NCBI GenBank assembly: GCA_902384585.1
Contig: CABMCJ010000001.1
Span: forward strand, 64,671-128,670
Source: Candidatus Anstonella stagnisolia
GTDB taxonomy: Archaea; Micrarchaeota; Micrarchaeia; Anstonellales; Anstonellaceae
Direction of reading: 5' to 3'
DNA length: 64,000 nucleotides
A model generated the notes under the pieces. The model searched no databases and had not been told where the DNA came from. It was given only the letters and a program-made list of their open reading frames with translations. This document shows positions 4,319-56,477 of the stretch, piece by piece (within the stretch, counting starts at the first letter, position 1; every line of letters begins with the position of its first letter). The translations under genes were made by a program, and so were the position numbers.

Positions 4319-4483
4319 GGGGTCATGTGCTAACCTGGTATGCTTCCGCGTTCGGGACGCGGCGGTCCGTGTTCAAACCTAGGGGGAACCAATGCATTCC
4401 GAAGGTCCCCCTGAGGTCTCACCCCCTCTTCGAAACCGAAGAGTCAGGCTCTGAAACCTCTGGTGAAAATCACGGTGACCCCA
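4319..4483 (+). tRNA. tRNA-Pro(CGG) with a 92-base T-loop intron
   Basis: The acceptor strands GGGGTCA (4319-4325) and TGACCCC (4476-4482) pair fully, with discriminator A4483. The anticodon stem CCGCG/CGCGG (4346-4350, 4358-4362) closes a loop with anticodon CGG at 4353-4355. The T-stem CCGTG (4367-4371) finds its partner CACGG only at 4471-4475, 100 bases later. Removing 4378-4469 restores a normal seven-base T-loop TTCAAAT and a 73-base tRNA. The D-stem is weak (two clear pairs), though its loop AACCTGG is typical of archaeal tRNA-Pro. No CCA is encoded. Confidence 0.93.
4378..4469 (+). other. tRNA-Pro intron inside the T-loop (position 59/60)
   Basis: The splice sites form a complete BHB motif. 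The outer helix is the T-stem; the central helix is TTCA (4372-4375) with TGAA (4464-4467); the three-base bulges are AAC (4376-4378) and AAT (4468-4470); and an inner helix of eight pairs, including G-T pairs, joins 4379-4386 to 4457-4463 and beyond. The intron also contains a seven-pair hairpin CTCTTCG/CGAAGAG. Cutting inside the bulges gives the boundaries used here. The motif is read directly from sequence; splicing itself is inferred. Confidence 0.88.
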
Positions 4484-22477: not shown

Positions 22478-22599
22478 TCAAATCACCGATAAGCATAATT
22501 GTTCAGGTCTTCTATTTAATACTCAACGTTTAAATTCCTATTTGGCACATAACTCCTTCTGGTGCCCCTGTAGCTCAGAGGTAGAGCGACTGCCTTGTA

Positions 22600-22624
22600 G
22601 CATTAAGCATATAAAATGCAAGCA
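22600..22624 (+). other. tRNA-Thr intron 1 (canonical 37/38 site)
   Basis: A strict BHB motif is present: central helix CTTG (22594-22597) with CAAG (22619-22622), bulges TAG (22598-22600) and CAA (22623-22625), and inner helix CATT/AATG. Cutting within the bulges removes 25 bases after position 37. Confidence 0.92.
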
Positions 22625-22646
22625 AGCAGTAGGTCACGAGTTCAAA

Positions 22647-22688
22647 AGCTTTCGGCTGGCGCCGAAAATTTGCCAGCAAAGCTGTCAA
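22647..22688 (+). other. tRNA-Thr intron 2 inside the T-loop (position 59/60)
   Basis: Forty-two bases separate TTCAAA from the final T of the T-loop. The intron folds on itself through AGCTTT/AAAGCT and GCTGGC/GCCAGC. The central four-pair helix of a strict BHB is only half formed here (two of four pairs), so the motif is relaxed compared with the tRNA-Pro intron at the same position. Confidence 0.85.
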
Positions 22689-22702
22689 TCTCGTCGGGGG
22701 CT

Positions 22703-41834: not shown

Positions 41835-44800
41835 TTGATGCGTCCCTTTGGCAAGGGTCAGGGCTCAGTCGAATTTCTGGCAATCCTAGGCGTTGCGCTC
41901 GTGGTGGTAGTGGTAATGACCGTTGCCGCAAACGACAGGCTTGTTGCGCTTGGGAAAGAGCGAACCCTGACAGATGCGGAAAACTCCGTGAACGACCTTG
42001 CGCGCGCCGCAAACAACGTGTACCACCGCGGCTCAGGCTCTTCGCAGAACGTTTACATAACAATACCCTCTGATACAAACCTCTCAAAATCCTACATCGC
42101 AAACCATACGATAAACCTGAACTTGCGCGGCACGGACGTAAGCGCGCGCACCGAGGCGCAGGTGAGCGGCAAGTTCCCCTTCTCAACGGGCGGGACATGG
42201 ATAAAAGTGCAGTCAAAGGGCTCGTACATATCCGTGGGCAACTATTACCTTGACATAAACCGCACCTCGCTTTACTTCAGCATGCAAAACGGCACGAGCG
42301 CGACTTTTCCCCTCACCATATACAATAGGGGAAACAGGTCCATCACAGTAAACATCACTACTGACGCCTCAAAATATTCGGATGCATTCCTGCTTTCGCT
42401 GCAGCCTTCTTCCGGCTTCACGATACCTGCCTTTTCAAGCACCGAAATGGACTTCTCATTCTTCACATATCCTTCCGCAGGGGGCATTTACCCTGCGTTT
42501 GCAACTTTCAGCGCAACCAATGCAACCTCAGGCGAGGCAATAAGCGAGCAGCTGCAGCTCCCGCTCACAATACAGGTAATCCTGCCTGTGCAATACCAGA
42601 ACCTGTCCGGCACCTCGCGCCTCATACTCTCCCCCTCCGAATGGCACGTGCGCCTTCCCCCAGGGAACGGCAGCGACCAGCTCTTTTTCGTAACAACTGA
42701 CGGCACGTACACCGCCCAGGAAATCGACTTTGTTGCATCAACAAGCGGCAATTTCGCAATAAGCGGGCTTGAGCCTTTCTACAACGTGAGCTCCAACGAC
42801 CCGCCAGGGCCGGGCATACGCACGCTCAGCGTGAATTTCTCGGCAACAGGCGCAAACGGGAATTACCTTGGCACGCTCAATGCAACCGCCGACGGCGCGT
42901 ACCGCGCAACCACCATCCTCAATTTCACGATAGACTCAACAGGCCCAAGCGCAGCCAACCTCTCCACAGACACCCAAACGCCCGGGAACAATACCATTGT
43001 GCGCATAAGCCTGAACGCAACCGAACTATTCGGCGGCTATGTTTCAATGTGCCAGTATTCAATCAACAACGGGGCATATGCCAACATGGCCCCGCTGGAC
43101 GGCACCTTCAACGCTTACGTAGAGGGAGCATACGTGGACACTACGCTCACTGCCGACGGGCTCAACAACATAACCGCGCGCTGCAAGGACGACCTGGGCA
43201 ACTGGGGCAACACAACGAACATTTCCATTTACGTGGATTCAAGCGGCCCGATAGTAACAATCACAGGGGTTTCAGCCTCAGTGCAGGATATAACAGTGAA
43301 TGCTACCGCTTCGGAACTTTCCACCGGCAACCTGAACGTGACGTGGTGCAACGCGACTTTCTACAGCAACGACACAGGCATTTCAAACACGACGCTGATG
43401 ACCCCAAGCAGCGGCTCGTACAACTCATCGTACACCACTCTGAATGCGACCATGACGCTTGACTACGGGCTTTACACAATAGGCGTAACCTGCTCGGATT
43501 CGTTTGGCAACACGCGCGCCGCCTCCTATGAGTTCTACCACAACATAAATTCCTGCGGCGTGCTCCTCAACCGCGACAACATCGTGTACCGGCTTGGAAA
43601 CAACGTGAACACGAGCAGCACATACTGCTTCCAGGCAACCGCGGACAACGTGACCTTGGACTGCATGGGAAAAACAATGGCGGGCACAAACGCAAGCGGC
43701 TCGTACGGCTTTTACACTGACCAGACCGGCACCACGATAAAAAACTGCATCATTTCCAATTTCTCGTCTGCAATATATTACAACACTGCAAGCGGCGGGA
43801 GCATACTGAACAATTCCGCAAGCACAACGTTTAGCGGCGGATACGGCATAGTATTGAATGCAGCAACAGGCAATGCAATAACAAACAATATTGCTTCCTC
43901 AAGCAACGGCTCTGCGGTTTACCTTGCAGCCTCTTCCAATGGCAATGCGCTTAGCGGCAACACTGCAAGCGGCACATCAGGCGCTGCAATAACGCTTTCA
44001 GGCTCGTCCTCCAACAACATTACAAACAGCAACGCAACCTCTGCTCTCGGATACGGCATCCTGCTCTCCACGAGCACGGGCAACCAGATAACAGGCACAA
44101 GCGCATACTCGGCTTCAACCAACGCAGTCTACATTACCTCCTCCTCGGACAACAACGGCATCGGAATCTCAGGGGCAACAAACGATTCCGCAATCTACAT
44201 TGACGGCGGCGCAAACAATGCCATAGACTGCCAGGGCGCAAGCATAAGCGGCACCAACACAACTGGCAACTACGGCGTTTACTCCAGCCAGCCGTATACC
44301 CTGGTAAACAACTGCAACATAAGCAACTTCGCAACTGCAATATACCTCCAGAATGCCGCAAACAGCACGATTTCAAACACTTCGGCAAGCTCCACCTACG
44401 GCATCGGCGGCTATGGCATCGACCTTGAGGGCACAAACAATACCCTCATCACGGCAAGCACGGTGAGCGCCTCAGGCGCGGGCACGACCGGCATCCTCCT
44501 CAATTCAGCCAGCACCAAAAACAACGTCTCAGGCAGCAGCATAAGCTCGGCAAACTGGGTTGCGCTCTCCATCATGGCAAGCTCAACCTACAACTCGGTT
44601 TCCTTCTGCAACATAACCGGCAAAACAAGCACCATATACAACGGCACAGTGCACCTGTATTCCTCCGCCCGCAACAACTTTACAAACGTCAACATAACTT
44701 CCACGTCCGGCACGGCATTCTTTGCAAACGGCAGCACTTCAACCTACACCCTAATAGCAAACAGCACGCTTTCCCAGGCAAGCACAGGGTATGTGTTTTA

Positions 44801-47800
44801 CTTTGTGGCAGGCAATTTCACGCTGGCTGACAGCAACATAAACAAGTCCGGAACCGGGTCTTACGGGATATACGCCGCATCCGCGTCTTCCATAACAAAC
44901 AACGTGATAAACGGCTCAAGCGCAGCCTCGTACGCGGTATACATGGCGGGCACGGGCAACATCTTTACTGGAAACACCCTGTTTTCCAAAACCTCCACTG
45001 CCGTGTACTTCTCATCAGGCGGCAATAAAATAGTAGGCAACAACATTTCCATAAATTCCACTGGCGACTATGGCATCTACCTCTCCTCCACCAGCACTTT
45101 AAACACTGTTGAAAACAACACGGTCTCCTCAACAACTGCAAGCGCACTCTACATCACCTCATCAAGCAGCAGCAACACCGTAAAGACAAATTCCTTCACT
45201 ACAATCTCAAACAACACAGTTACGGTTGCAGGCGCAAGCAACACAAACAAATTCATCCAGAACAACATGACTTCCACTTCGGGCGCGGGGATTTACATAA
45301 CAAACGCCTCAGGCACGAACCTGACCGGCAACAACTTGGCTTCCTCATCTGGCTGCGGGGCATGGCTAAATACGCCGTACAGCAGCTACACGGTATTCTC
45401 CGGGAATTCAATTTCTTCAGCTTCAAACAGTTCGCTCTGCCTTTCTTCAAGCAACAGCAACAACTTCACGAACAACACGTTCTATTCCTCTTCCTCAAAC
45501 GGCATAGCGTTTTCAAACTCCAATTCCTCAACATTTGCAAACAATTCCATAAACGCAAGCGGAAGCGGAATCCTGCTTGACTCCGCCTCCATGGACAATT
45601 CGTTCTACTGGAACTCCCTTTACCGCGCAACCGCTTACATAAACAATTCCAATCCCGCAAACTTCTTCAGCATTGCGAATTTCACGAACACAAGCGGGCT
45701 TATCGGATACTGGAGTTTTGATGCGAACATATCGAGCACCACAACTGGCGCACTTCCAGATGAAAGCGGAAACGGGAATGCGGGCACGCTTGGTGGAGGG
45801 ACTGCTTCGCAGGTGCCGGCATGGGCAAGCAGCGGAAAAATCGGCGGCACATACACTTTTGACGGGAACGACGATTTTGCCAAAATGCCTGATGCAGACT
45901 CCCTTGATGTGCAAACAGGCAACTTTACCATATCCGCATGGGTTTACCCCATTTCTGAAGCTTGGGGCTATATAGTTGCAAAGGACGGTTGCGGCGACCC
46001 AAATATTTACAGCATAACAACGGGAGGCGGCTCTCCCCCGTCTCTTAGGTTACAAAATTCGGCAGGAACAAATTTCTTCTCGACATCACCTTCAAATATC
46101 TCCATGAATGCGTGGAGCCACATCGTTGCATACAAATCCGGAACCACAATGGGGCTCTATGTAAACGGGGTGCTCGTGAACACAACCGCAATAAGCGGCA
46201 CTTTCTCCAACAATGCATTTGAATTTGACGTAGGAAGAAGGTCCAGAACAGACAGCGGCTGCCCTCGTTACTTCAACGGCTCAATAGACGACGTGCGCAT
46301 ATTCAACCGCGCGCTCTCAGCAGCAGAGATTTCAGCGCTCTACAGCCTCAAGGCGCAAGGAAACTACTACGACAACATAAAAAGCGTTTCTATTTACGAT
46401 TCCGATGGGGATTCTTTTGGGGATTCTGGTTCTGCATACCCCTACACGAGCGCAACCTCCTCAAGATGGGTTGGAAGCGGCACGGACTACGGTCCCATGT
46501 ATGCGAACACAACCGCGCCCTATGCGTGCATGGTGCTTGACATCGCAGGTCAAACCTACAATGTTGTCTCCGACATCACAGCCAGCGGCGCAGGCGCATG
46601 CTTTAACGTAACCGCGCAAAACGTGATTCTTAACTGCAACGGGCACACTATTACGGGCGACAACTCAAGCAACTCATACGGAGTATTTTCCAGCAAGCTC
46701 AACACAACAATAACAAACTGCAACATAAACAATTTCGGGACAGGGATATGGCTTGAGAATGGCGCTAGCAACGGCACGATATCGGGCACCAACATAAGCA
46801 TAACAAAAGCCTATTCCCTGCCCAACGGCGTAGGCATCTGGGTCCACCTTGCCTCGCACTACAACCAGATAATAAATTCAAACGTGACATCCACGCTCGG
46901 CCACGGCATCCTTCTTGATTCGGGCCCGACTTACAACCAAATAATCAATTCGTCGGGCACGTCAGTTTCAAACGTGGGACTTTATTTCTACTCAAGCACG
47001 AACAACACAATATTGAATTCGGTCGGGGCTTCGGGCACAAGCAGCGGCATCAAGCTTACCTCAAGCTCAAATAACAACCAGGTAACAAACTCAAATGCCA
47101 CCTCCTCTTCCAGCGTCGCGGGCTACATTTCCTCAGGCTCAACAAACAACGTTTTCAACGGCGGCACGTACGTTTCAAACGCGAGCGCCTCAAGCGAGGC
47201 GTTCGTTGTGGACCTCTCCTCGCACAACAACCAGCTTTTGAACCTCAACATAACCGCAACCGGCGCAAGGGGCGCGCTTAGTTTTAGCAACGCAAACAAT
47301 TTGACAGTGATAAATTCCTCAATATACTCCCCCGGCTACTACACCTTCTTCGGAGGCGGCGCTTCGCTTAACGACACTTTCCTGAACAACAACATAACCG
47401 GCGCATCCTCCTACATAAGCTACGTGAACAACAGCATCTTCGCAAACAACACCTTCAGCACAAGTGGCAACGCCTTCAGGCTCGTAGCGTCCAGCAACAA
47501 CATCGTGCAGGGCAACCGCATGTCATCAAGCGGCTCGGCAAGCGGCATACAGCTTGAATCCGGCAGCAGCAACAACACCGTCGCCGGAAACAACGCTTCT
47601 TCAAGTTCGGGCTACGGCATTTACATTACCTCTTCAAACAGCAACAACCTCACAAACAACAACGCAACATCCACTTCCAACTACGGCATTTACGACAGTT
47701 CGGGCTCGTCCAACAGTTACACAAACAACAGGGCAAGCGGCACGCGCGCATTCCACTGGTACCTCACCACGGGCAATTTTGCAAACAACAATACCGCAAG

Positions 47801-50800
47801 CGGCGGGGGCAACATCGGATGCATTATTGAAAACAGCAACACATTCACCTTTGCAAACAACACCTGCACCTGCACGTCAGGGAACGCGCTTGTGCTCCAG
47901 AATTACAACTCGGCTGCAAACTACACCGGCAACAACGTTACGGGGAACAATTTCACGTGCACAAGCAGCGGCACAACAGTGCAGCTTGGCTATGCCCCTG
48001 CTTACATGATAAGCAACAGCTTCTTTACGAACAACGTCGTAAGCGCATCTACCGGCACGGGGCTGTATGTCCGAATAGGCTATGGTGGAAACTCTATTGT
48101 GAACAACACCATAACATCCGCATCCGGCCTTGGCATTTCCCTTTCCTCAGGCGCAAACAACTATTTCGAGAACAATTCCAATTGCATTTCCTGTTCCAAC
48201 TCAACCGCGCGCTTCTACTCAAATGCGGCGCAAAATATCTCTTCCAACACGAACATTGGCTGGTGGCCCCTTCTCTCCTCAAATGGCTCTGATGCAACCG
48301 CGCTTGCAAGCACTGCATACTACAACGGAAGCACTGGCGGAAGGTTCTCCAACTGGACAGCAAATTCCTACCTCACTTACTGGTACAACGGGCAGGTGAA
48401 TTTATACGGCTGCCAGAACTTAACCGTGCCAGGAACATACCTCCTAAAGCAAAACGTTTCCATAAACGGTTCCACCTGCTTCATTTTCTCAACTGCAGAC
48501 GTAACCCTTGATTGCCAGAATTATTGGGTAACCGGCGACAACACGCTTGGCACTTTCGGGGTTTACACGGCGCAGAACGGCCCGACAGTGCAGAACTGCA
48601 ACATACAGTATTTTGATGACGGCATATACTACAACTACACTGACCGGGGGCTCATACAGAACACGTTTGCAAACGTAACCTCGTCCTACACCTACCTTAC
48701 CCCTTACACTCAGGGAGCAGGGTTTGCGATTTATGGCGCAAGCAGCCGCGCAAACACAATATTGAATTCAACCGGCATTTCGCAAAATGGGAATGGCATA
48801 ACGCTGCGCGCATTGAACGTGAGCGTGATAAACTCAACCGGCATAAGCACGAACGGGAACAACACGCTCTCGGGCGGCATATGGCTAATTGGGAGCGGCA
48901 GCCACCGCATAACCGGCTCAACTGGCATATGCACAGGCGGCGCGTGCAGCGGCATCACAATGAGGGGCACCGTAAGCAACACAATAACAAACTCAACCGC
49001 AACAGCCAGTTCCACCTATTACGGCATCTTCATTTCCCAGTCCTCGGACATGGTGATAGACAACGTTACCATGAATTCCACGGGCACCGGCGGCGGCATA
49101 CAGCTTGGCGACCGCTGCTACCGCAACACGATAAAGAATTCCCTGATAAACATCACTTCCAGCGTTTATGGCATATACGAAAGCGCCTCAGGCACGGACA
49201 CAACGCCCGCCAGGAACAACTCCTACATAAACGTGAGCATAATTGGCGCAAACAAGGGCATCTTCCTCTATGACGAGCACGACGCAGGCGCCTACTTTGA
49301 GAATGTGTCCAACTGCCTTTCCTGTGACAACTCCGCACTGCGCTTCCGCTCAAATGCAACCCTTAACATTTCCTCAAAGGAAAACACAGGCTGGTGGCCC
49401 CTCCTTAGCGCGGACGGCTCAAATGCAACCGTGCTTGCGAACACTGCGTTCTACAATGGAAGTTCCGGCGGGAAGAATTCCGACTGGAGCGCAAACCCCA
49501 TGCTTTCCTACTGGTACAACGGGCAGGCGGACATAAGTGCGTGCATGGCGCTTAGCGCCCCGGGCATTTACACGCTATCTTCCGACCTCTCCATAAACGG
49601 CTCGACCTGCATCAGCATATCCGCGCAAAATGTTACCCTTGATTGCGCAGGGCACACGATTACAGGCGACAACACAACCTCAACTTATGGGGTATATTCC
49701 AACCAGAAAAACACAACCGTGAAAAATTGCAACATAGACAACTTCCAGCACGGAATATATTTCAATGGCGCAACATACGGCGCAATACAAAACAATACTG
49801 CCATAACCAGGCACTCGACCGGATACAGCATTTATCTCGTATCCTCATCAAACAACATCCTTTCAAATAACAACGGAACCACGCGCTCGCCCATCTGGTC
49901 AACAGGCGCAACCGAACTATTGTCAAGCAACAACAACCAGATACTTAACTCCGCGGCAGGAAGCCTGAACTCAGGAGGAGGATACGGGTTAAGCCTTGAC
50001 TCAAGCTCCAACAACCAAATCATAAACTCAACCGGCTATGGCGGAGGGAACACAGCAATAGGCATTTCCTCAGGCTCAAACAACAGCATAATAAATTCCA
50101 GCGGCATTGCAAGCGGCTATTATGGCATTAAGCTGGATACGACCACCAACAACCTAATCCTGAATTCCAATACCTCAAGCTCGTACTACGTATTCTGGAT
50201 AACCGCAAGCTCAAACAACCAGATAATAAACACGGCGGCAACTTCCACCAACCCCACCTACTCCGCATTCTACCTATCCTCCTCTTCAAACAACAACACC
50301 TTCAACCTCACAAGGGGCATTTCAACAAACAATTCCGCACTCTATATTACTAGCGGCGCGAACAACACGATAGACTGCCAAGGCGCGAATATCATAGGCA
50401 CAAATTCCTCGTACGGAGTTTACTCCACACAGTACGGCACAACAGTGAAGAACTGCAACATCTCCAACTTCCAGGACGGCATACGCTTCAACGGCGCAAC
50501 CTACGGCACAATACAAAATACAAATGCGAGCACAACAAACACGACAGGCTACGGGATTTACCTACTGGGCAGCGCAGACAGCAACACGCTGCAAAACGAC
50601 AATGCAATTGCAAAAGGGACTGCGATTTACATAAACGGGAGCAGCTCCAACATAGTGACAGGCACGTATGCGAACAACACCGCAAGCGGCACCAATCCGG
50701 CAGGATTTGCGCATGCGGGCATCTACATATTCAACACAAACAACAACCAAGTGATAAACTCCACAATGGGCGGAGTGGGCTATGGGATAATAATCCACCA

Positions 50801-53800
50801 GGGTGCTGGCAAAGTAATAAACTCAACCGGAACAGCATCAAGCGCAGGCATCTTCATCACATACACCGGCTCAGCCCAAGTAATAAACTCAAACGGCACA
50901 TCAACTTCCTCGGGTCCTGGCATCCAGATAAGCGGAACCTCGGAAACCAGCAGCAACATCATTAATGCGTCAATAGGCATTTCCGCTTCCGGACACGGCA
51001 TTTCACTTGCCAGCGGCGGCTCAAACAACTACATAGACTGCCAAGGAAAGAGCATAACCGGCACAAACACATCAAGCACATACGGCATTTACTCCACCCT
51101 AGCCAGAACAACCGTGAAGAACTGCATAATCTCCAACTTCTCTGACGGCATCCGTTTCAACGGCGCAAGCAACGGCTCAATACAAAACACTATCGCAAGC
51201 ACAACAAGGGCAGGCGGCAGCGGCATATACCTTACAGGGGGCGCAACCAACAACACAATAACAAACTCAATTGGAATATCCGCATCCGGGCAAGGCATCA
51301 ATGTTGATGCAGGCTCAAATGGCAACACATTCACAAGCACAAGCGGCGCATCAACTTCCGGCACAGGATTGCAATTCTCTTCAAGCAACAATACCCTGAC
51401 AGGACTGAACGACCTGAACAATTCCGTCGGGCTTGTTTCCTACTGGAAATTTGATGAGGGAACCAGCACAACCGCCTCAGACAGCAGGGGCGGGAACATT
51501 GGAACCATGTACAACGGCCCAGCCTGGACAACTGGAAAAAGCGGGCAGGCATTAAGCTTTGATGGCTTTGAAGACATGGTTACGGTGCCGTACAATGCAA
51601 ACCTTATTTATACCGGCGGGGACATGAGCTGGTCCGTGTGGGTCAATCCAACCGCAGGGGAAACAGATGGTGGATATATTATTTCCAAGCCCTGGAATGG
51701 ATTGGGGCAGTATAATTACCAGTTCTATTCCTATGGCAGCCGCACGATTCAAGTAACGCTTCTGGGAGCGACCAGTTTTAGTTCAAGCACGACCAGTGCA
51801 TTGCCGGCTGGGCAGTGGTCGCATATTGTCTTCTCAGTTGAGGGAAGTTCTAAAACAGTTAAAATTTATGTTAACGGCAATTTGTCAGTCCAAAATACAC
51901 ACTCAATTACGAACTGGACCCCGTCCTCAGGCAACACAAACATAAATCTGGCTATTGGCACTCTTTATCCATACGGCGTTTGGGCCGGAAACAGCGTATT
52001 TTCTTTCAACGGCACGATAGATGAACCGATGTTTTTCAACCGCGTTCTCTCCGCGCAGGAAGTCGCCCTCCTGTACCAGAACCCATCCTCAAGAATCCCG
52101 ACAGGTTCCTCAACTTCAGGCTATGGCATCTACCTCAACTCAAGCTCAAGCAACTATTTCGAAAACGCTTCCAACTGCCCCTCGTGCGCAGTTACCCCCC
52201 AGCGCTTCTACTCAAACGCGGCGCAAAACGCCTCCTCGCGCATGAACATTGGCTGGTGGCCCCTTCTTGAGTCAGCAGGCTCTGACGCAACGACACTTAA
52301 CATGACTGCATTCTTCAACGGAAGCGCAGGGGGCACGAACTACGACGGCACTACAAACGCGCAAAACACGTACTGGATGGGCGGCAACTACTCCTCGCTG
52401 CAGGCGTGCGGCGCGCTCTCGTCCCCCAACACAGTTTACCGCCTCGGCTCGGACGTTTCCATTGCAGGGGCAACCTGCTTCAACGTAACTGCGCAGAATG
52501 TTACGCTCAACTGCGTTGGGCATTCAGTAAGCGGCGACAACACGACTGCAACTTACGGTATTTATTCCAACAAGTTCAACACAACAGTGAAGAACTGCAA
52601 CATCTCCAACTTTGATACCGGCATTTACTTCAACACGGCAAGCAACGGCACAATGCAGAACAACAATGTATCAACAACAAATACTGCTTCTGCCGGCACC
52701 TCCCCGACCTACGCTGCGGCAATAGTCCTTTACAACGGTGCCAGCTTCAACACGCTTGCAAACAACAATGCAACTGCCACGGCTGGCAAGGGCATTTTTG
52801 TTTCCACAAGCTCAAATGGCAACGCAATATCGGGCTCAAGCGGCACCTCTGCTTCCAACGGGGGCTTCTACTTCTACACGAACTCAAACAACAACCAAGT
52901 GATAAACTCAATTGGAACCTCGGCTTCCGGAAGCGGGTTCAACCTAAATTCAGGCGTAAGCAACAACCAAATAATAAACTCAACAGGCATATCCAACTCA
53001 GGCAAAGGCATCTGGCTTGCAGCCGATTCACTTAACAATTCGCTCACAAACTCAAACTTCACATCCAATTCAAGCAATGGCATCCTGCTTGATACACGGT
53101 CAAACAGCACCCAAATAATAAGCTCAACCGCTTACTCCAACGCTACCTCCGCAATCTATATCACTGCAGGCACCGGAAGCAACGTCCTCAACCTCACAAG
53201 AAGTTTCACTACAAACCTTTCCGCAGTTTACATTGATGGGGCGGGTGGCAACTCTGCAAACAATATAATAGACTGCCAAGGCGCAAGCATGACTGGCAAC
53301 AACATCTCAGCCACTTATGGCATATACTCCACCCAGTCCAACACAACAATCCAGAACTGCAACGTTTCCAACTTCCAGTACGGCGTATACCTCAGCTCAG
53401 CAACCGGAAGCGACGTGCTGAATTCCACAATCTCAACAAGCAACAACGCGGGCTTTGGGATTTACGTGACAGGCAGCAGCGGCTACGTTATCGCAGGGAA
53501 CAACGTCTCCGCAACCGGAAACAATGCATCCTCAACTGCAACCACTTCAATCTACCTAACTGCCGCAACCGGCAGCCTTATTGAGAACAACACGGTGAAC
53601 GCATCCGACACAACGCTTCCCGCCCTCTTCAACAACCCCATTGATATTGCAGAATCCGGCAACAACCTCTATGTTGCGGACGCTTCCAACTACCTTGTGC
53701 GCCAGATAGACCTGACCACAAACTTCTCCTCCCTTGTTGCAGGCGCCCTTGAGAATCCGGCATATATCGAAGGGGTTGGCGCGAGCGCGCATTTCTACAA

Positions 53801-56477
53801 CACATACAGCGTTGCAGCGGGCACTGACGGCTACCTCTACGTTGCGGACTACAGCAACAACCGCATCCGCAAAATAAACCTTGCAACAAACGAAACCTCA
53901 TTGGTGGCGGGCAGCACGTCCGGCTATGCAAACGGCGTGGGCGCGGCAGCAAAATTCTCAGCCCCGCGCGGCCTTTCATACGACCCAGCAGGCTTCCTGT
54001 ACGTTGCGGACGAAGGCAACCACCGCATCCGCAAAATAGATTTGGCAACAAACACAGTTACCCTTCTTTCAGGCAGCGGGACAGCAGGCTACCTTGATGG
54101 CGCCAACACGACTGCGCGCTTCTACGCGCCCGCAAGCACGTCCCTTGGCACTGACGGCTACCTCTATGTAGCAGATTCATCCAACCACCGCATCCGCAAA
54201 GTGGAGCTTTCAACAGGCACCGCATCCCTTGTAGCAGGCAGCGGGACAGCAGGCTACCTTGAGGGCATTGGCGCAGCCGCAAGGTTCTACTATCCAGGCG
54301 GGGTTGCATTCGGCGCGGACGGCTATCTCTATGTAGCAGACACATACGACCATTGCATCCGCAAAATAGAGCTGTCAACAAACACGACCTCCCTTGTGGC
54401 AGGCAGCACATCACGCGTATCAGGCACCACTGACGGCGTGGGTTCCGCAGCAAGGTTCTACTACCCGCGCGGCATAACATATGACTCTGCAGGCACCCTC
54501 TATGTTGCAGATACCTCCAACCACAGAATCAGGCAGGTAAACCTGGGCACAACAAGCGTTTCCAGAATAACCGGCAGCGGGACAGCGGGCTACATGGAAG
54601 GCGCGGGCACCACCACCTACTCAGGGCATGGAATATACCTCACAAGCAGCGCAACCTCGAACATTGTGCGCAACAACACTGCATTCTCCTCTTCCGCAAA
54701 CGGGATAGACGTTGAGGCGTCAAGCACAAACCTCACGGGCAATTCCGGGTCCTCAATAACCGGCTACGGAATATATGCAGGCATTCCCCAATATGGGCTT
54801 GTTGCAAACAACACGGGAGTTTCATACGCAGGAAGTGGCATCGGCTTCTCCTCATCAACAAACAATGCAAATGCGCAAATATACAACAACGGGGGCAGCT
54901 CCACAACAGAGTACGGCATTCTGGTTACCGCAAGGGACAGCAACGTAAGCAACAATACCGGCATTTCTTTCAACGACGTGGGCTTTATGTGCAGCTCGTG
55001 CTTAAGGAACGACCTCACGGCAAACTCAGGCACCTCAAACATTAGCTATGGGAACTATTATGCAAGCTCAACGTACAACAGGGTTTCAAACGAAAGCGGC
55101 ACTTCCCTTTATGGATACGGATGCAGGTTTCTCTCCTCTTCCTACAATAACATTTCAACCGGCGGCTATTCTTCAAACGCCTCCTATGCAATGTACTTTG
55201 ACAGCGATACATACAACAACCTCTCAAGCAGCACATTCGCCTCAAACTCCTACTATGGGCTAGGCATCTTAACCAGCAACAACAACAGCTTTGTGAACAA
55301 CTTCGCAACCTCGCTTGCAAGCCAAGCGCTTCGGCTCGACACCGCCCACGCCAACACGTTCATAAACAACAGCGGCATAAGCAACACCAGCGTCGGGCTT
55401 GCCATTTATTATTCCGAGAACAACACCTTTATTGACAACACTGCAAGGTCAAACACAAGCTATGGGATATACTTCTATTCGTCCACAACCGCATTCTCAA
55501 GGTACAACTCCCTAATAGAAAACAATGCAACCTCCGGAACAAGCTACGCATTGGCTATCGACGCCCGCTCAAACAACAACACCCTCATAAACAACACCGC
55601 ATTTTCGGGTTCAGGCGCAGGCATATACGTAAATTCCGCGTACAACAACACTCTAAATGGGAACACTGCAACCTCGAATGCAAGTTCCTATGGCATATAC
55701 ATCTCTTCTTCAGACAACAACACGGTAATAAACAACAACGCAACCTCGCGCTCCGTGCAGGCAATCCTTCTCAACAATGCAAACAACAACAACATCACCA
55801 ACAACGTGGCAACAATACTAGTAAGCAACGGGGCATACATCCTGCACCTCCTGCACAGCGACAACAATACGGTTTCAAACAACGTGTTTTCCTCAACCCT
55901 GACGAACACGGGCATCCGCCTTGAGAATTCGTCCGACAACGACCTTGAGAACAACATCGCGGGCGCGGGCGCAAGCTATGGCATATACCTCTACAACGGC
56001 ACAGGAGGGGGAAGGACGGACCGCAACACCCTCACAAACAACACGGCAACTTCAACATCAAACTATGGCATTTACCTAAACGGCGCCAACGCCAACATCC
56101 TGACTGGCAACAACGCAACCTCGGGCACAAGCAGCGCAGTCTACATCGCCCTTGGTGCGAACAATTCCCTCATACGAAACACAATGTACGCCCCCTCAAG
56201 CTACGGCGTTTACATCCTCAACTCCTTAAACAACTATTTCGAATACAACAACAATTCCCTTGAATACACTGGTTCCTCGGTGCAGAAATTCTATGCCGGC
56301 GCGGCGCAGAACACCTCTTCAAAAGGGAATCGGGGATGGTGGCCGATTCTCGCAGGCACAGGCACTGAATCCGTTATACAGGCAGCAACCGCATACTTCA
56401 ACGGCACTGCCGGCGGCCTGGATGCAAACGGCGCGCCAAACCCCGCAAACACTTACTGGTACAACGGGCAGAGTTAG
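41835..56477 (+). CDS. Giant pilin-signal beta-helix surface protein with LamG and NHL modules
   Basis: The 4880-codon frame encodes a surface protein. The start MMRPFGKG-QGSVEFLAILG is a class III (archaeal pilin/archaellin-type) signal, with cleavage expected between G and Q and a hydrophobic helix behind it. Residues about 40-570 hold beta domains with many Asn-glycosylation-type sites, including NRGNRSITVNI and Ig-like repeats with paired Cys (CQYSINNG, CKDDLGNW). A right-handed beta-helix of NosD type follows, with coils of the form NNTVSSTSGYGIYLxSSSSN. At least nine NVTLDCxGxxITGxN...TTVKNCNISNF modules and four GWWPLL linkers divide it. LamG-like domains are near 45.7-46.35 kb and 51.4-52.1 kb, an NHL propeller near 53.6-54.6 kb. 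It ends at a linker without a membrane anchor. GGTGA-N4 precedes TTG 41835; ATG 41838 is the alternative. Confidence 0.9.
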   Translation: MMRPFGKGQGSVEFLAILGVALVVVVVMTVAANDRLVALGKERTLTDAENSVNDLARAANNVYHRGSGSSQNVYITIPSDTNLSKSYIANHTINLNLRGTDVSARTEAQVSGKFPFSTGGTWIKVQSKGSYISVGNYYLDINRTSLYFSMQNGTSATFPLTIYNRGNRSITVNITTDASKYSDAFLLSLQPSSGFTIPAFSSTEMDFSFFTYPSAGGIYPAFATFSATNATSGEAISEQLQLPLTIQVILPVQYQNLSGTSRLILSPSEWHVRLPPGNGSDQLFFVTTDGTYTAQEIDFVASTSGNFAISGLEPFYNVSSNDPPGPGIRTLSVNFSATGANGNYLGTLNATADGAYRATTILNFTIDSTGPSAANLSTDTQTPGNNTIVRISLNATELFGGYVSMCQYSINNGAYANMAPLDGTFNAYVEGAYVDTTLTADGLNNITARCKDDLGNWGNTTNISIYVDSSGPIVTITGVSASVQDITVNATASELSTGNLNVTWCNATFYSNDTGISNTTLMTPSSGSYNSSYTTLNATMTLDYGLYTIGVTCSDSFGNTRAASYEFYHNINSCGVLLNRDNIVYRLGNNVNTSSTYCFQATADNVTLDCMGKTMAGTNASGSYGFYTDQTGTTIKNCIISNFSSAIYYNTASGGSILNNSASTTFSGGYGIVLNAATGNAITNNIASSSNGSAVYLAASSNGNALSGNTASGTSGAAITLSGSSSNNITNSNATSALGYGILLSTSTGNQITGTSAYSASTNAVYITSSSDNNGIGISGATNDSAIYIDGGANNAIDCQGASISGTNTTGNYGVYSSQPYTLVNNCNISNFATAIYLQNAANSTISNTSASSTYGIGGYGIDLEGTNNTLITASTVSASGAGTTGILLNSASTKNNVSGSSISSANWVALSIMASSTYNSVSFCNITGKTSTIYNGTVHLYSSARNNFTNVNITSTSGTAFFANGSTSTYTLIANSTLSQASTGYVFYFVAGNFTLADSNINKSGTGSYGIYAASASSITNNVINGSSAASYAVYMAGTGNIFTGNTLFSKTSTAVYFSSGGNKIVGNNISINSTGDYGIYLSSTSTLNTVENNTVSSTTASALYITSSSSSNTVKTNSFTTISNNTVTVAGASNTNKFIQNNMTSTSGAGIYITNASGTNLTGNNLASSSGCGAWLNTPYSSYTVFSGNSISSASNSSLCLSSSNSNNFTNNTFYSSSSNGIAFSNSNSSTFANNSINASGSGILLDSASMDNSFYWNSLYRATAYINNSNPANFFSIANFTNTSGLIGYWSFDANISSTTTGALPDESGNGNAGTLGGGTASQVPAWASSGKIGGTYTFDGNDDFAKMPDADSLDVQTGNFTISAWVYPISEAWGYIVAKDGCGDPNIYSITTGGGSPPSLRLQNSAGTNFFSTSPSNISMNAWSHIVAYKSGTTMGLYVNGVLVNTTAISGTFSNNAFEFDVGRRSRTDSGCPRYFNGSIDDVRIFNRALSAAEISALYSLKAQGNYYDNIKSVSIYDSDGDSFGDSGSAYPYTSATSSRWVGSGTDYGPMYANTTAPYACMVLDIAGQTYNVVSDITASGAGACFNVTAQNVILNCNGHTITGDNSSNSYGVFSSKLNTTITNCNINNFGTGIWLENGASNGTISGTNISITKAYSLPNGVGIWVHLASHYNQIINSNVTSTLGHGILLDSGPTYNQIINSSGTSVSNVGLYFYSSTNNTILNSVGASGTSSGIKLTSSSNNNQVTNSNATSSSSVAGYISSGSTNNVFNGGTYVSNASASSEAFVVDLSSHNNQLLNLNITATGARGALSFSNANNLTVINSSIYSPGYYTFFGGGASLNDTFLNNNITGASSYISYVNNSIFANNTFSTSGNAFRLVASSNNIVQGNRMSSSGSASGIQLESGSSNNTVAGNNASSSSGYGIYITSSNSNNLTNNNATSTSNYGIYDSSGSSNSYTNNRASGTRAFHWYLTTGNFANNNTASGGGNIGCIIENSNTFTFANNTCTCTSGNALVLQNYNSAANYTGNNVTGNNFTCTSSGTTVQLGYAPAYMISNSFFTNNVVSASTGTGLYVRIGYGGNSIVNNTITSASGLGISLSSGANNYFENNSNCISCSNSTARFYSNAAQNISSNTNIGWWPLLSSNGSDATALASTAYYNGSTGGRFSNWTANSYLTYWYNGQVNLYGCQNLTVPGTYLLKQNVSINGSTCFIFSTADVTLDCQNYWVTGDNTLGTFGVYTAQNGPTVQNCNIQYFDDGIYYNYTDRGLIQNTFANVTSSYTYLTPYTQGAGFAIYGASSRANTILNSTGISQNGNGITLRALNVSVINSTGISTNGNNTLSGGIWLIGSGSHRITGSTGICTGGACSGITMRGTVSNTITNSTATASSTYYGIFISQSSDMVIDNVTMNSTGTGGGIQLGDRCYRNTIKNSLINITSSVYGIYESASGTDTTPARNNSYINVSIIGANKGIFLYDEHDAGAYFENVSNCLSCDNSALRFRSNATLNISSKENTGWWPLLSADGSNATVLANTAFYNGSSGGKNSDWSANPMLSYWYNGQADISACMALSAPGIYTLSSDLSINGSTCISISAQNVTLDCAGHTITGDNTTSTYGVYSNQKNTTVKNCNIDNFQHGIYFNGATYGAIQNNTAITRHSTGYSIYLVSSSNNILSNNNGTTRSPIWSTGATELLSSNNNQILNSAAGSLNSGGGYGLSLDSSSNNQIINSTGYGGGNTAIGISSGSNNSIINSSGIASGYYGIKLDTTTNNLILNSNTSSSYYVFWITASSNNQIINTAATSTNPTYSAFYLSSSSNNNTFNLTRGISTNNSALYITSGANNTIDCQGANIIGTNSSYGVYSTQYGTTVKNCNISNFQDGIRFNGATYGTIQNTNASTTNTTGYGIYLLGSADSNTLQNDNAIAKGTAIYINGSSSNIVTGTYANNTASGTNPAGFAHAGIYIFNTNNNQVINSTMGGVGYGIIIHQGAGKVINSTGTASSAGIFITYTGSAQVINSNGTSTSSGPGIQISGTSETSSNIINASIGISASGHGISLASGGSNNYIDCQGKSITGTNTSSTYGIYSTLARTTVKNCIISNFSDGIRFNGASNGSIQNTIASTTRAGGSGIYLTGGATNNTITNSIGISASGQGINVDAGSNGNTFTSTSGASTSGTGLQFSSSNNTLTGLNDLNNSVGLVSYWKFDEGTSTTASDSRGGNIGTMYNGPAWTTGKSGQALSFDGFEDMVTVPYNANLIYTGGDMSWSVWVNPTAGETDGGYIISKPWNGLGQYNYQFYSYGSRTIQVTLLGATSFSSSTTSALPAGQWSHIVFSVEGSSKTVKIYVNGNLSVQNTHSITNWTPSSGNTNINLAIGTLYPYGVWAGNSVFSFNGTIDEPMFFNRVLSAQEVALLYQNPSSRIPTGSSTSGYGIYLNSSSSNYFENASNCPSCAVTPQRFYSNAAQNASSRMNIGWWPLLESAGSDATTLNMTAFFNGSAGGTNYDGTTNAQNTYWMGGNYSSLQACGALSSPNTVYRLGSDVSIAGATCFNVTAQNVTLNCVGHSVSGDNTTATYGIYSNKFNTTVKNCNISNFDTGIYFNTASNGTMQNNNVSTTNTASAGTSPTYAAAIVLYNGASFNTLANNNATATAGKGIFVSTSSNGNAISGSSGTSASNGGFYFYTNSNNNQVINSIGTSASGSGFNLNSGVSNNQIINSTGISNSGKGIWLAADSLNNSLTNSNFTSNSSNGILLDTRSNSTQIISSTAYSNATSAIYITAGTGSNVLNLTRSFTTNLSAVYIDGAGGNSANNIIDCQGASMTGNNISATYGIYSTQSNTTIQNCNVSNFQYGVYLSSATGSDVLNSTISTSNNAGFGIYVTGSSGYVIAGNNVSATGNNASSTATTSIYLTAATGSLIENNTVNASDTTLPALFNNPIDIAESGNNLYVADASNYLVRQIDLTTNFSSLVAGALENPAYIEGVGASAHFYNTYSVAAGTDGYLYVADYSNNRIRKINLATNETSLVAGSTSGYANGVGAAAKFSAPRGLSYDPAGFLYVADEGNHRIRKIDLATNTVTLLSGSGTAGYLDGANTTARFYAPASTSLGTDGYLYVADSSNHRIRKVELSTGTASLVAGSGTAGYLEGIGAAARFYYPGGVAFGADGYLYVADTYDHCIRKIELSTNTTSLVAGSTSRVSGTTDGVGSAARFYYPRGITYDSAGTLYVADTSNHRIRQVNLGTTSVSRITGSGTAGYMEGAGTTTYSGHGIYLTSSATSNIVRNNTAFSSSANGIDVEASSTNLTGNSGSSITGYGIYAGIPQYGLVANNTGVSYAGSGIGFSSSTNNANAQIYNNGGSSTTEYGILVTARDSNVSNNTGISFNDVGFMCSSCLRNDLTANSGTSNISYGNYYASSTYNRVSNESGTSLYGYGCRFLSSSYNNISTGGYSSNASYAMYFDSDTYNNLSSSTFASNSYYGLGILTSNNNSFVNNFATSLASQALRLDTAHANTFINNSGISNTSVGLAIYYSENNTFIDNTARSNTSYGIYFYSSTTAFSRYNSLIENNATSGTSYALAIDARSNNNTLINNTAFSGSGAGIYVNSAYNNTLNGNTATSNASSYGIYISSSDNNTVINNNATSRSVQAILLNNANNNNITNNVATILVSNGAYILHLLHSDNNTVSNNVFSSTLTNTGIRLENSSDNDLENNIAGAGASYGIYLYNGTGGGRTDRNTLTNNTATSTSNYGIYLNGANANILTGNNATSGTSSAVYIALGANNSLIRNTMYAPSSYGVYILNSLNNYFEYNNNSLEYTGSSVQKFYAGAAQNTSSKGNRGWWPILAGTGTESVIQAATAYFNGTAGGLDANGAPNPANTYWYNGQS
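45690..46350 (+). other. LamG-like domain 1 within the giant protein
   Basis: The encoded segment begins GLIGYWSFDANI and contains DESGNGNAG, YTFDGNDDFAKMPD, FTISAWVYP, WSHIVAYKSGTTMGLYVNG and IDDVRIFNRALSAAEI, the classic sequence of a concanavalin A-like LamG domain that binds glycans or proteins. It is placed in a loop that is uninterrupted in the second giant protein. Confidence 0.88.
48158..48420 (+). repeat. GWWPLL linker module 1
   Basis: The module reads YFENNSNC-SC, RFYSNAAQN, GWWPLL, TAYYNGSTGG and YWYNGQ. It recurs near 49285, 52147 and 56226 in the same gene, each time joining one beta-helix tract to the next. Confidence 0.8.
49285..49530 (+). repeat. GWWPLL linker module 2
   Basis: Same order of motifs as module 1: YFENVSNCLSC, GWWPLLSADG, TAFYNGSSGG, YWYNGQADIS, followed by a new CMALSAPGIYTL beta-helix cap. 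Confidence 0.8.
51426..52090 (+). other. LamG-like domain 2 within the giant protein
   Basis: The segment runs VGLVSYWKFDEGTSTTASD, ALSFDGFEDMVTVPY, MSWSVWVNP, QWSHIVFSVEGSSKTVKIYV, then IDEPMFFNRVLSAQEVALLY. It sits between NTLTG and SSTSGYGIYL of one beta-helix coil. Codons are more AT-rich than in the surrounding gene, especially around 51600-51960. Confidence 0.88.
52147..52385 (+). repeat. GWWPLL linker module 3
   Basis: YFENASNCPSC, RFYSNAAQN, GWWPLLESAG and TAFFNGSAGG are present; the usual YWYNGQ is replaced by TYWMGGNYSSLQ before the next CGALSSPNTVYRL cap. Confidence 0.8.
53618..54610 (+). repeat. Six-bladed NHL propeller repeats within the giant protein
   Basis: Six repeats each contain LYVADxSNxRIRKI followed by TSLVAGSGTAGYLxGxG and ARFYYPxG. 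The DNA repeats strongly: GGCAGCGGGACAGCAGGCTA appears near 54073 and 54238 and with one change near 54574. Six copies match the number of blades in an NHL beta-propeller. It interrupts a beta-helix coil between NASDTT and TTTYSGHGIYL. Confidence 0.9.
56226..56477 (+). repeat. GWWPIL linker module 4, ending the first giant gene
   Basis: YFEYNNNSLEY, KFYAGAAQN, GWWPILAGTG, TAYFNGTAGG and TYWYNGQ are followed by one Ser codon and TAG. The other modules continue into another beta-helix cap at this point. Confidence 0.8.

Follow-up and report, generated by a model that had tools for sequence, protein, structure and literature searches.

A pseudoknotted T-loop intron in the tRNA-Thr(UGU) gene of Candidatus Anstonella stagnisolia is one copy of an intron family found across the Micrarchaeota

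The second of two introns in the tRNA-Thr(UGU) gene of Candidatus Anstonella stagnisolia is one copy of a phylum-wide family of structured introns that, within the literature in our scope, has not previously been described. The body of the intron is predicted to be a conserved H-type pseudoknot, set on a short stem that would form the inner helix of the splice motif. Taken jointly, we consider it very likely that the gene is functional, that it is the only Thr(UGU) gene and is spliced by EndA and RtcB, and that intron 2 is a recent copy of a mobile pseudoknot family, although no RNA data are available. In the proposed sequence of events, an epsilon2-type EndA would remove both introns and RtcB would join the exons, a reaction that is inferred for the Thr pre-tRNA. 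The T-loop intron would be a recent arrival from a mobile family of 40-odd-nt introns, whose last bases are predicted to pair with the exon as UGWC in T-loops, UGAC in a tRNA-Val D-loop and UAGC in 16S rRNA.

The window, that is, the whole 64,000-nt stretch of DNA analysed, corresponds to positions 64671-128670 of contig C1 in a 1.33-Mb, six-contig genome (G000). An earlier note on this DNA had described a tRNA-Thr gene with two introns, and every coordinate was borne out by the sequence and by in silico intron removal (Table 1). The gene has acceptor strands GCCCCTG and CGGGGGC, a D-arm, the anticodon TGT, a discriminator T and a T-arm reading ACGAG-TTCAAA[42 nt]T-CTCGT, and a T-rich tract lies 3' of it. 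Neither ARAGORN nor Rfam at the gathering threshold called the unspliced gene (RF00005 reached just 22 bits), and ARAGORN made no tRNA call at the locus with no intron or just one removed. With both introns cut out in silico, it called tRNA-Thr(tgt) with a full seven-pair acceptor stem. Our own two-intron scanner, which tolerates 37/38 and T-loop introns, was run on both strands of the 1.33 Mb. The locus scored 42.6 and the best non-tRNA 35.6, so the locus is not a product of chance; the real tRNAs of the genome scored at least 38.3. Elsewhere in the window, the + strand carries an open reading frame of 4880 codons (41835-56477) that takes up nearly a quarter of the length.

Table 1. Positions in the window of the tRNA-Thr(UGU) gene, its parts and predicted intron 2 pairings, and of a tRNA-Pro gene with a T-loop intron of another family
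Feature	Position	Strand	Evidence
TTTAAA, TATA-like box 30-35 nt upstream of tRNA-Thr(UGU)	22529-22534	+	alignment with congener G001; function inferred
tRNA-Thr(UGU) gene, three exons and two introns	22564-22702	+	sequence, scanner, intron removal; orthologue in congener G001
Exon 1, tRNA positions 1-37, anticodon TGT	22564-22599	+	sequence, ARAGORN after intron removal
Intron 1, 25 nt, position 37/38	22600-22624	+	strict BHB; orthologous 26-nt intron in G001
Exon 2, positions 38-59	22625-22646	+	sequence, ARAGORN after intron removal
Intron 2, 42 nt, position 59/60	22647-22688	+	pseudoknot T-loop intron family, model R2, 74.8 bits, E 1e-11
Exon 3, positions 60-73	22689-22702	+	sequence, ARAGORN after intron removal
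Intron 2 exon-intron central BHB helix, C56 and A57 (22643-22644) with 22683-22684	22643-22684	+	register test, covariation
Stem P0, intron 2 (inner BHB helix), 22648-22650 with 22680-22682	22648-22682	+	covarying
Stem S1, intron 2, 22651-22655 with 22662-22666	22651-22666	+	strongly covarying
Pseudoknot stem S2, intron 2, loop CUGGCG (22656-22661) with UGCCAG (22671-22676)	22656-22676	+	covariation
tRNA-Pro(CGG) with 92-nt T-loop intron (about 4378-4469), family A, strict BHB TTCA/TGAA	4319-4483	+	register test, homology

Both introns possess the motif expected of BHB introns, in which an exon-intron helix of 4 bp is bounded by two 3-nt bulges and cleavage falls behind the second bulge base. 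In intron 1, the central helix (CTTG/CAAG) and the inner helix (CATT/AATG) each have 4/4 pairs, which upholds the earlier reading of a strict-BHB intron at 37/38. Intron 2 has a relaxed form with its bulges in register, and its central helix, TTCA/TGTC, has the two of four pairs that had been reported. Because TCAA is repeated at both ends of intron 2, three registers are possible, and cuts at 57/58, 58/59 or 59/60 all yield TTCAAAT. The 59/60 position that had been assigned to this 42-base T-loop intron is favoured as the sole register with an adjoining inner helix (five pairs) and two central pairs, and the site is empty in the congener (G001), where TTCAAAT is uninterrupted in a Thr(UGU) gene that carries the orthologous intron at 37/38. 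Removal also restores a canonical RNA, as judged by ARAGORN after in silico removal and by the empty sites. Cutting of the Thr pre-tRNA by EndA and joining by RtcB are inferred from the motif and the genes alone, without RNA or enzyme data.

The enzymes that splicing would require are encoded in the genome. The 430-aa EndA matches its ARMAN-2 counterpart (4FZ2) over the full length (E 4e-128), and is 97% identical to that of Candidatus Micrarchaeota archaeon RIFCSPHIGHO2_02_FULL_50_12 over an 86-aa catalytic stretch. It keeps the catalytic residues Y236/H251/K282 and ASL residues Y160/K161; EndA catalytic and ASL residues are needed for cutting BHB and BHL pre-tRNAs (PMC12397907). With its three-unit alphaN-alpha-betaC chain it qualifies as epsilon2 (ARMAN) type, in line with the suggestion that a heterotetrameric or epsilon-type enzyme accepting relaxed motifs is at work. 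An RtcB gene is present (E 8e-177), and the epsilon-type EndA chain is general in the order. The epsilon2 EndA of ARMAN cuts BHB and BHL introns in vitro (PMC4033280, PMC6379350, PMC12397907), and a 2025 report describes a structure of epsilon2 EndA with RNA (PMC12397907). The genome also encodes, at C4:793491-794114(-), a short second EndA-like protein (PF01974 and PF02778), which is conserved across the order (L321-L340). Its catalytic His is absent in 20 of 20 aligned orthologues, which have R, K or V instead; it is probably a dead paralogue beside the epsilon2 enzyme, and an extra EndA subunit is possible.

A blastn search of the host genome had found no relative of intron 2, and its interpretation as a stray hairpin was overturned by alignment with short T-loop introns of relatives and by pattern searches. 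A pattern for its 3' half, TGCCAGCN{1,10}GCTGNCAATC, occurred in 23 of 99 relatives, and a second, covering the 5' part and core, in 18 of 301 Micrarchaeota genomes; controls (for the first, the reversed pattern) gave 0. With a covariance model (R2) built from 28 copies and a threshold of E<=1e-3, 72 copies were found, spread over 33 of the 301 genomes and 17 genera. The Thr intron ranks third, and the host genome holds three copies. Extension of the R2 search to the 395 nearest genomes gave no further copies and none outside Micrarchaeota, and a search of viral contigs with the core pattern gave no match. The genomes searched are mostly metagenome assemblies. A T-stem with at least 4/5 pairs flanks 59 of 66 distinct copies examined. 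Host isotypes number at least 12 (Glu, Ser, Leu, Gly, Arg, Thr, Asp, Ala, Phe, Ile, Trp and Gln) as assigned by the scanner, with single calls such as Phe and Asp not checked by hand. Since the model and the patterns contain T-loop flanks, copies outside T-loops are under-sampled. A flank-free pattern matched 14 places, namely 12 T-loops, one 16S rRNA gene and one apparently coding site (probably chance), so that the family is, as far as seen, restricted to spliced RNAs. The third copy in the host genome (C4:861112-861160) lies in the T-loop of a two-intron tRNA-Leu(UAA) gene that no tool had called, and its pseudoknot stem is changed to CUGAC/GUCAG.

Common to all copies is an H-type pseudoknot made up of P0, S1 with its loop CUGGCG, and S2, in which that loop pairs with a downstream UGCCAG. 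Across 28 sequences (alignment A2), 93.7% of cells were paired, as against 26-52% when the partners were slid, and 46 cells were doubly changed as against 14 in shuffles. For 67 copies the corresponding counts were 140 and 38, a value reached by 0 of 500 shuffles. S2 alone, with S2 left out of the model, had 12 doubly changed cells against 2.0 (0 of 500 shuffles), and occurs as CUGGC/GCCAG, CUGUC/GACAG, CUGCC/GGCAG, CUGAC/GUCAG and CUGGA/UCCAG. The sequences are related, which inflates the counts, and the shuffle counts are therefore not probabilities; the slid control retains this relatedness, yet its pairing collapses. The pseudoknot likely serves to present a weak splice motif to EndA, to support mobility, or both, which is inference only.

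The exon-intron pairing is likewise maintained. Exon base 57 and intron base -6 occur as A-U (50), A-C (2), G-U (4) and G-C (10) (Fisher p=2.7e-7, relatedness ignored), and this covariation indicates that the BHB at 59/60 is under selection. C56 pairs with base -5 in 66 of 66 copies. At -3, 63 of 66 copies have a C, which is unpaired with U54 (54 and -3 being U/C in 59 of 66), and T-loop copies have only 2-3 conventional pairs in the central helix. By inference, G53 may pair with -3 if U55 bulges, although the cleanest alternative pairing, G53/U54 with -3/-4 and U55 bulged, competes with the T-stem. The 2/4 central helix of the Thr intron is thus the norm for the family and not decay.

The gene might nonetheless be thought a pseudogene broken by its second insert, with the 2/4 helix as a symptom. 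We find this scarcely credible, given that the weak helix is the family norm and that the exons match those of the congener save one variable-loop base, with the TTTAAA box at -35 to -30 conserved. Among the Thr codons, ACA is moreover used most often (14.9 per 1000 in long open reading frames), and no other Thr(TGT) gene was found in the genome, which is 89% complete, so that a miss is possible; the GGT and CGT genes are separate. Another Thr(TGT) gene doing the work would, according to the earlier note, have refuted its interpretation, and within the same limit of completeness none was encountered.

Two copies lie outside T-loops. In G015, a 43-nt pseudoknot intron (L449, G015:C3:13762-13814) interrupts the 3' end of the 16S rRNA gene (SSU_rRNA_archaea, 522 bits) at ...GGGGCTAAG|intron|TCGTAACAAGG, with a central helix GCTA/TAGC of 4/4 pairs; the same site is uninterrupted in the host genome. 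In the D-loop of a tRNA-Val gene (L432, G101:C26:13745-13796), the arrangement is GTCGAA|intron|TGGTAAGAC and the central helix GTCG/TGAC has 4/4 pairs, one of them G-U. The intron bases that change with the site are just those few that pair with the exon. Because the pairing bases are the last before the 3' site, one intron body would fit any site that they can match, and because UUCRAAU is common to all tRNAs, one copy would fit almost every tRNA, making T-loops the main home of the family.

A small, conserved, pseudoknotted RNA recalls known small ribozymes, and the weak BHB in T-loops would also suit a self-cleaving or self-splicing element whose pseudoknot catalyses its own excision without EndA. 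This is very improbable in our judgement. Rfam cmscan of the locus at E<=5 returned just tRNA and one chance hit, with no ribozyme and no group I or group II intron, and the covariation between exon and intron is consistent with a BHB. The 16S and D-loop copies, whose exon sequences differ, have a complete central helix, and a broad-specificity enzyme, the epsilon2 EndA, is present.

An ordinary, inert EndA-spliced intron could owe its resemblance to others to descent within tRNA genes and gene conversion of T-arms; all located copies save two sit in T-loops, and their shared sequence could support recombination. We nevertheless regard this as unlikely. Apart from a few bases such as AA|T, the flanks of the 16S and D-loop copies are not homologous to T-arms; close relatives have empty sites, and BHB cutting does not need a strongly conserved pseudoknot. 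The intron most similar to that of Thr, at 95% identity, comes from another family of the order and from a tRNA whose anticodon differs, and nearest neighbours in other genomes share an isotype in 7 of 38 cases, no more than chance (4.7 expected by shuffling). The Thr T-loop is also empty in the other members of the host's family whose Thr(UGU) gene was parsed. Movement between genes is established on distribution, by the neighbour isotypes, the rRNA copy and the empty sites of close relatives, and its mechanism is inferred only. A possible route, which has not been demonstrated, is that a circular excised RNA would re-enter RNA by exon pairing, followed by reverse transcription or recombination. 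It is hypothesized, only tentatively and as something we rather doubt, that the T-loop intron is an autonomous mobile RNA that is excised by EndA, persists as a (circular) RNA and re-enters tRNA and rRNA genes guided by exon pairing, parasitising or co-opting the splicing machinery.

T-loop introns had been predicted to be common in this genome, and a survey placed a T-arm intron in 13 of about 45 tRNA genes. By register, eight lie at 59/60, those of Leu-CAA and Met-CAT at 58/59 and that of Ser-GGA at 56/57; the test omits an unassigned tRNA and Leu-TAA, and T-stem pairs of the last three genes were read by eye. The pseudoknot family accounts for Thr-TGT, Gly-CCC and Leu-TAA. Family A introns, of 90-100 nt or longer, occur in Pro-GGG, Pro-CGG, Leu-CAA, Gly-GCC, Ser-GCT, Met-CAT, Lys-CTT and an unassigned tRNA near C4:760400, and short introns in Arg-TCG and Ser-GGA are unplaced. 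The tRNA-Pro(CGG) intron does use 59/60, as had been pointed out, but is of another family, and homology of the Thr intron to it was rejected, the family A model (R1) missing the Thr intron. In a distant genus (L131, G034), the tRNA-Thr(UGU) gene bears a T-loop intron of 135 nt and of the kind seen in family A, so that the same Thr T-loop has been invaded independently.

The homologous family A introns (window 4374-4470; L220-L239, L161-L190) share CCTAGGGGG...CCCCCT.AGGTYTCACCCCC in the eight tRNAs. Their palindromic core recurs in 37/38 introns (Arg-TCT), immediately downstream of genes for tRNA-Val and tRNA-Ala and, in relatives, in apparently intergenic positions, once (L227) flanked by the direct repeat GCGCGGTCAAA. 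Family A looks like a REP/MITE-like element turned intron. The tRNA-like gene at C4:760230-760560(-) contains a family A T-loop intron, and its anticodon arm is interrupted by another, undefined intron. Another repeat, family B (AACCCTTTTGC..CTCCAG..GCAAAAGCGTTGACGG; C1:11637, C4:342758, C4:780245, C1:19564, C4:365847(-) and C4:405808), serves as a 37/38 intron in tRNAs for Glu, Gln, Ala and Ser and is also found outside tRNAs. The copy at C1:19564 lies between copies of GCTCTCTCAAA, and that at C4:365847 has on either side a copy of the ~48 bases with which an apparent protein gene begins.

Introns at 59/60 and intron transposition are known in Thermoproteales, where the mechanism is unknown (PMC4090602). 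The non-canonical BHB introns of that order (Sugahara 2008; reviewed in PMC4090602 and PMC8450103) resemble those described here in position 59/60, in several introns per tRNA, in BHB-type removal and in an intron-rich genome. The Micrarchaeota differ in being another phylum, in having an epsilon2 rather than a heterotetrameric enzyme and in the conserved pseudoknot body. The transposed introns of Thermoproteales are similarly alike in different tRNAs and at canonical and non-canonical sites, with an unknown mechanism (sequences were not compared), whereas the pseudoknot family spans many genera, has a 16S rRNA copy and re-matches its exon-pairing bases. Multiple-intron tRNAs are known from ARMAN-1 and -2 (PMC4033280), which share the phylum and the enzyme with its ASL (PMC4033280, PMC6379350, PMC12397907; 4FZ2), but we came across no description of a conserved intron family or pseudoknot in them. 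More generally, no report of a conserved pseudoknotted intron family was found; subscription papers, including Fujishima 2011, were outside our scope in both cases. BHB-type introns likewise occur in 16S rRNA genes of Thermoproteales (PMC4496867), whereas the G015 copy is far too short for a protein and has its homologues among the T-loop introns of tRNAs.

The introns of archaeal tRNAs are commonly seen as fillers defined just by their ends; here, the body itself is a conserved pseudoknot that occurs at many sites across a phylum, with exon-pairing bases re-matched for each kind of site. The family explains why many Micrarchaeota tRNAs escape tRNA finders and constitutes a natural substrate class for epsilon2 EndA. 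The spread of archaeal tRNA introns, by a mechanism that PMC4090602 calls unknown, becomes testable through the filled and empty sites in close relatives and the 16S rRNA copy.
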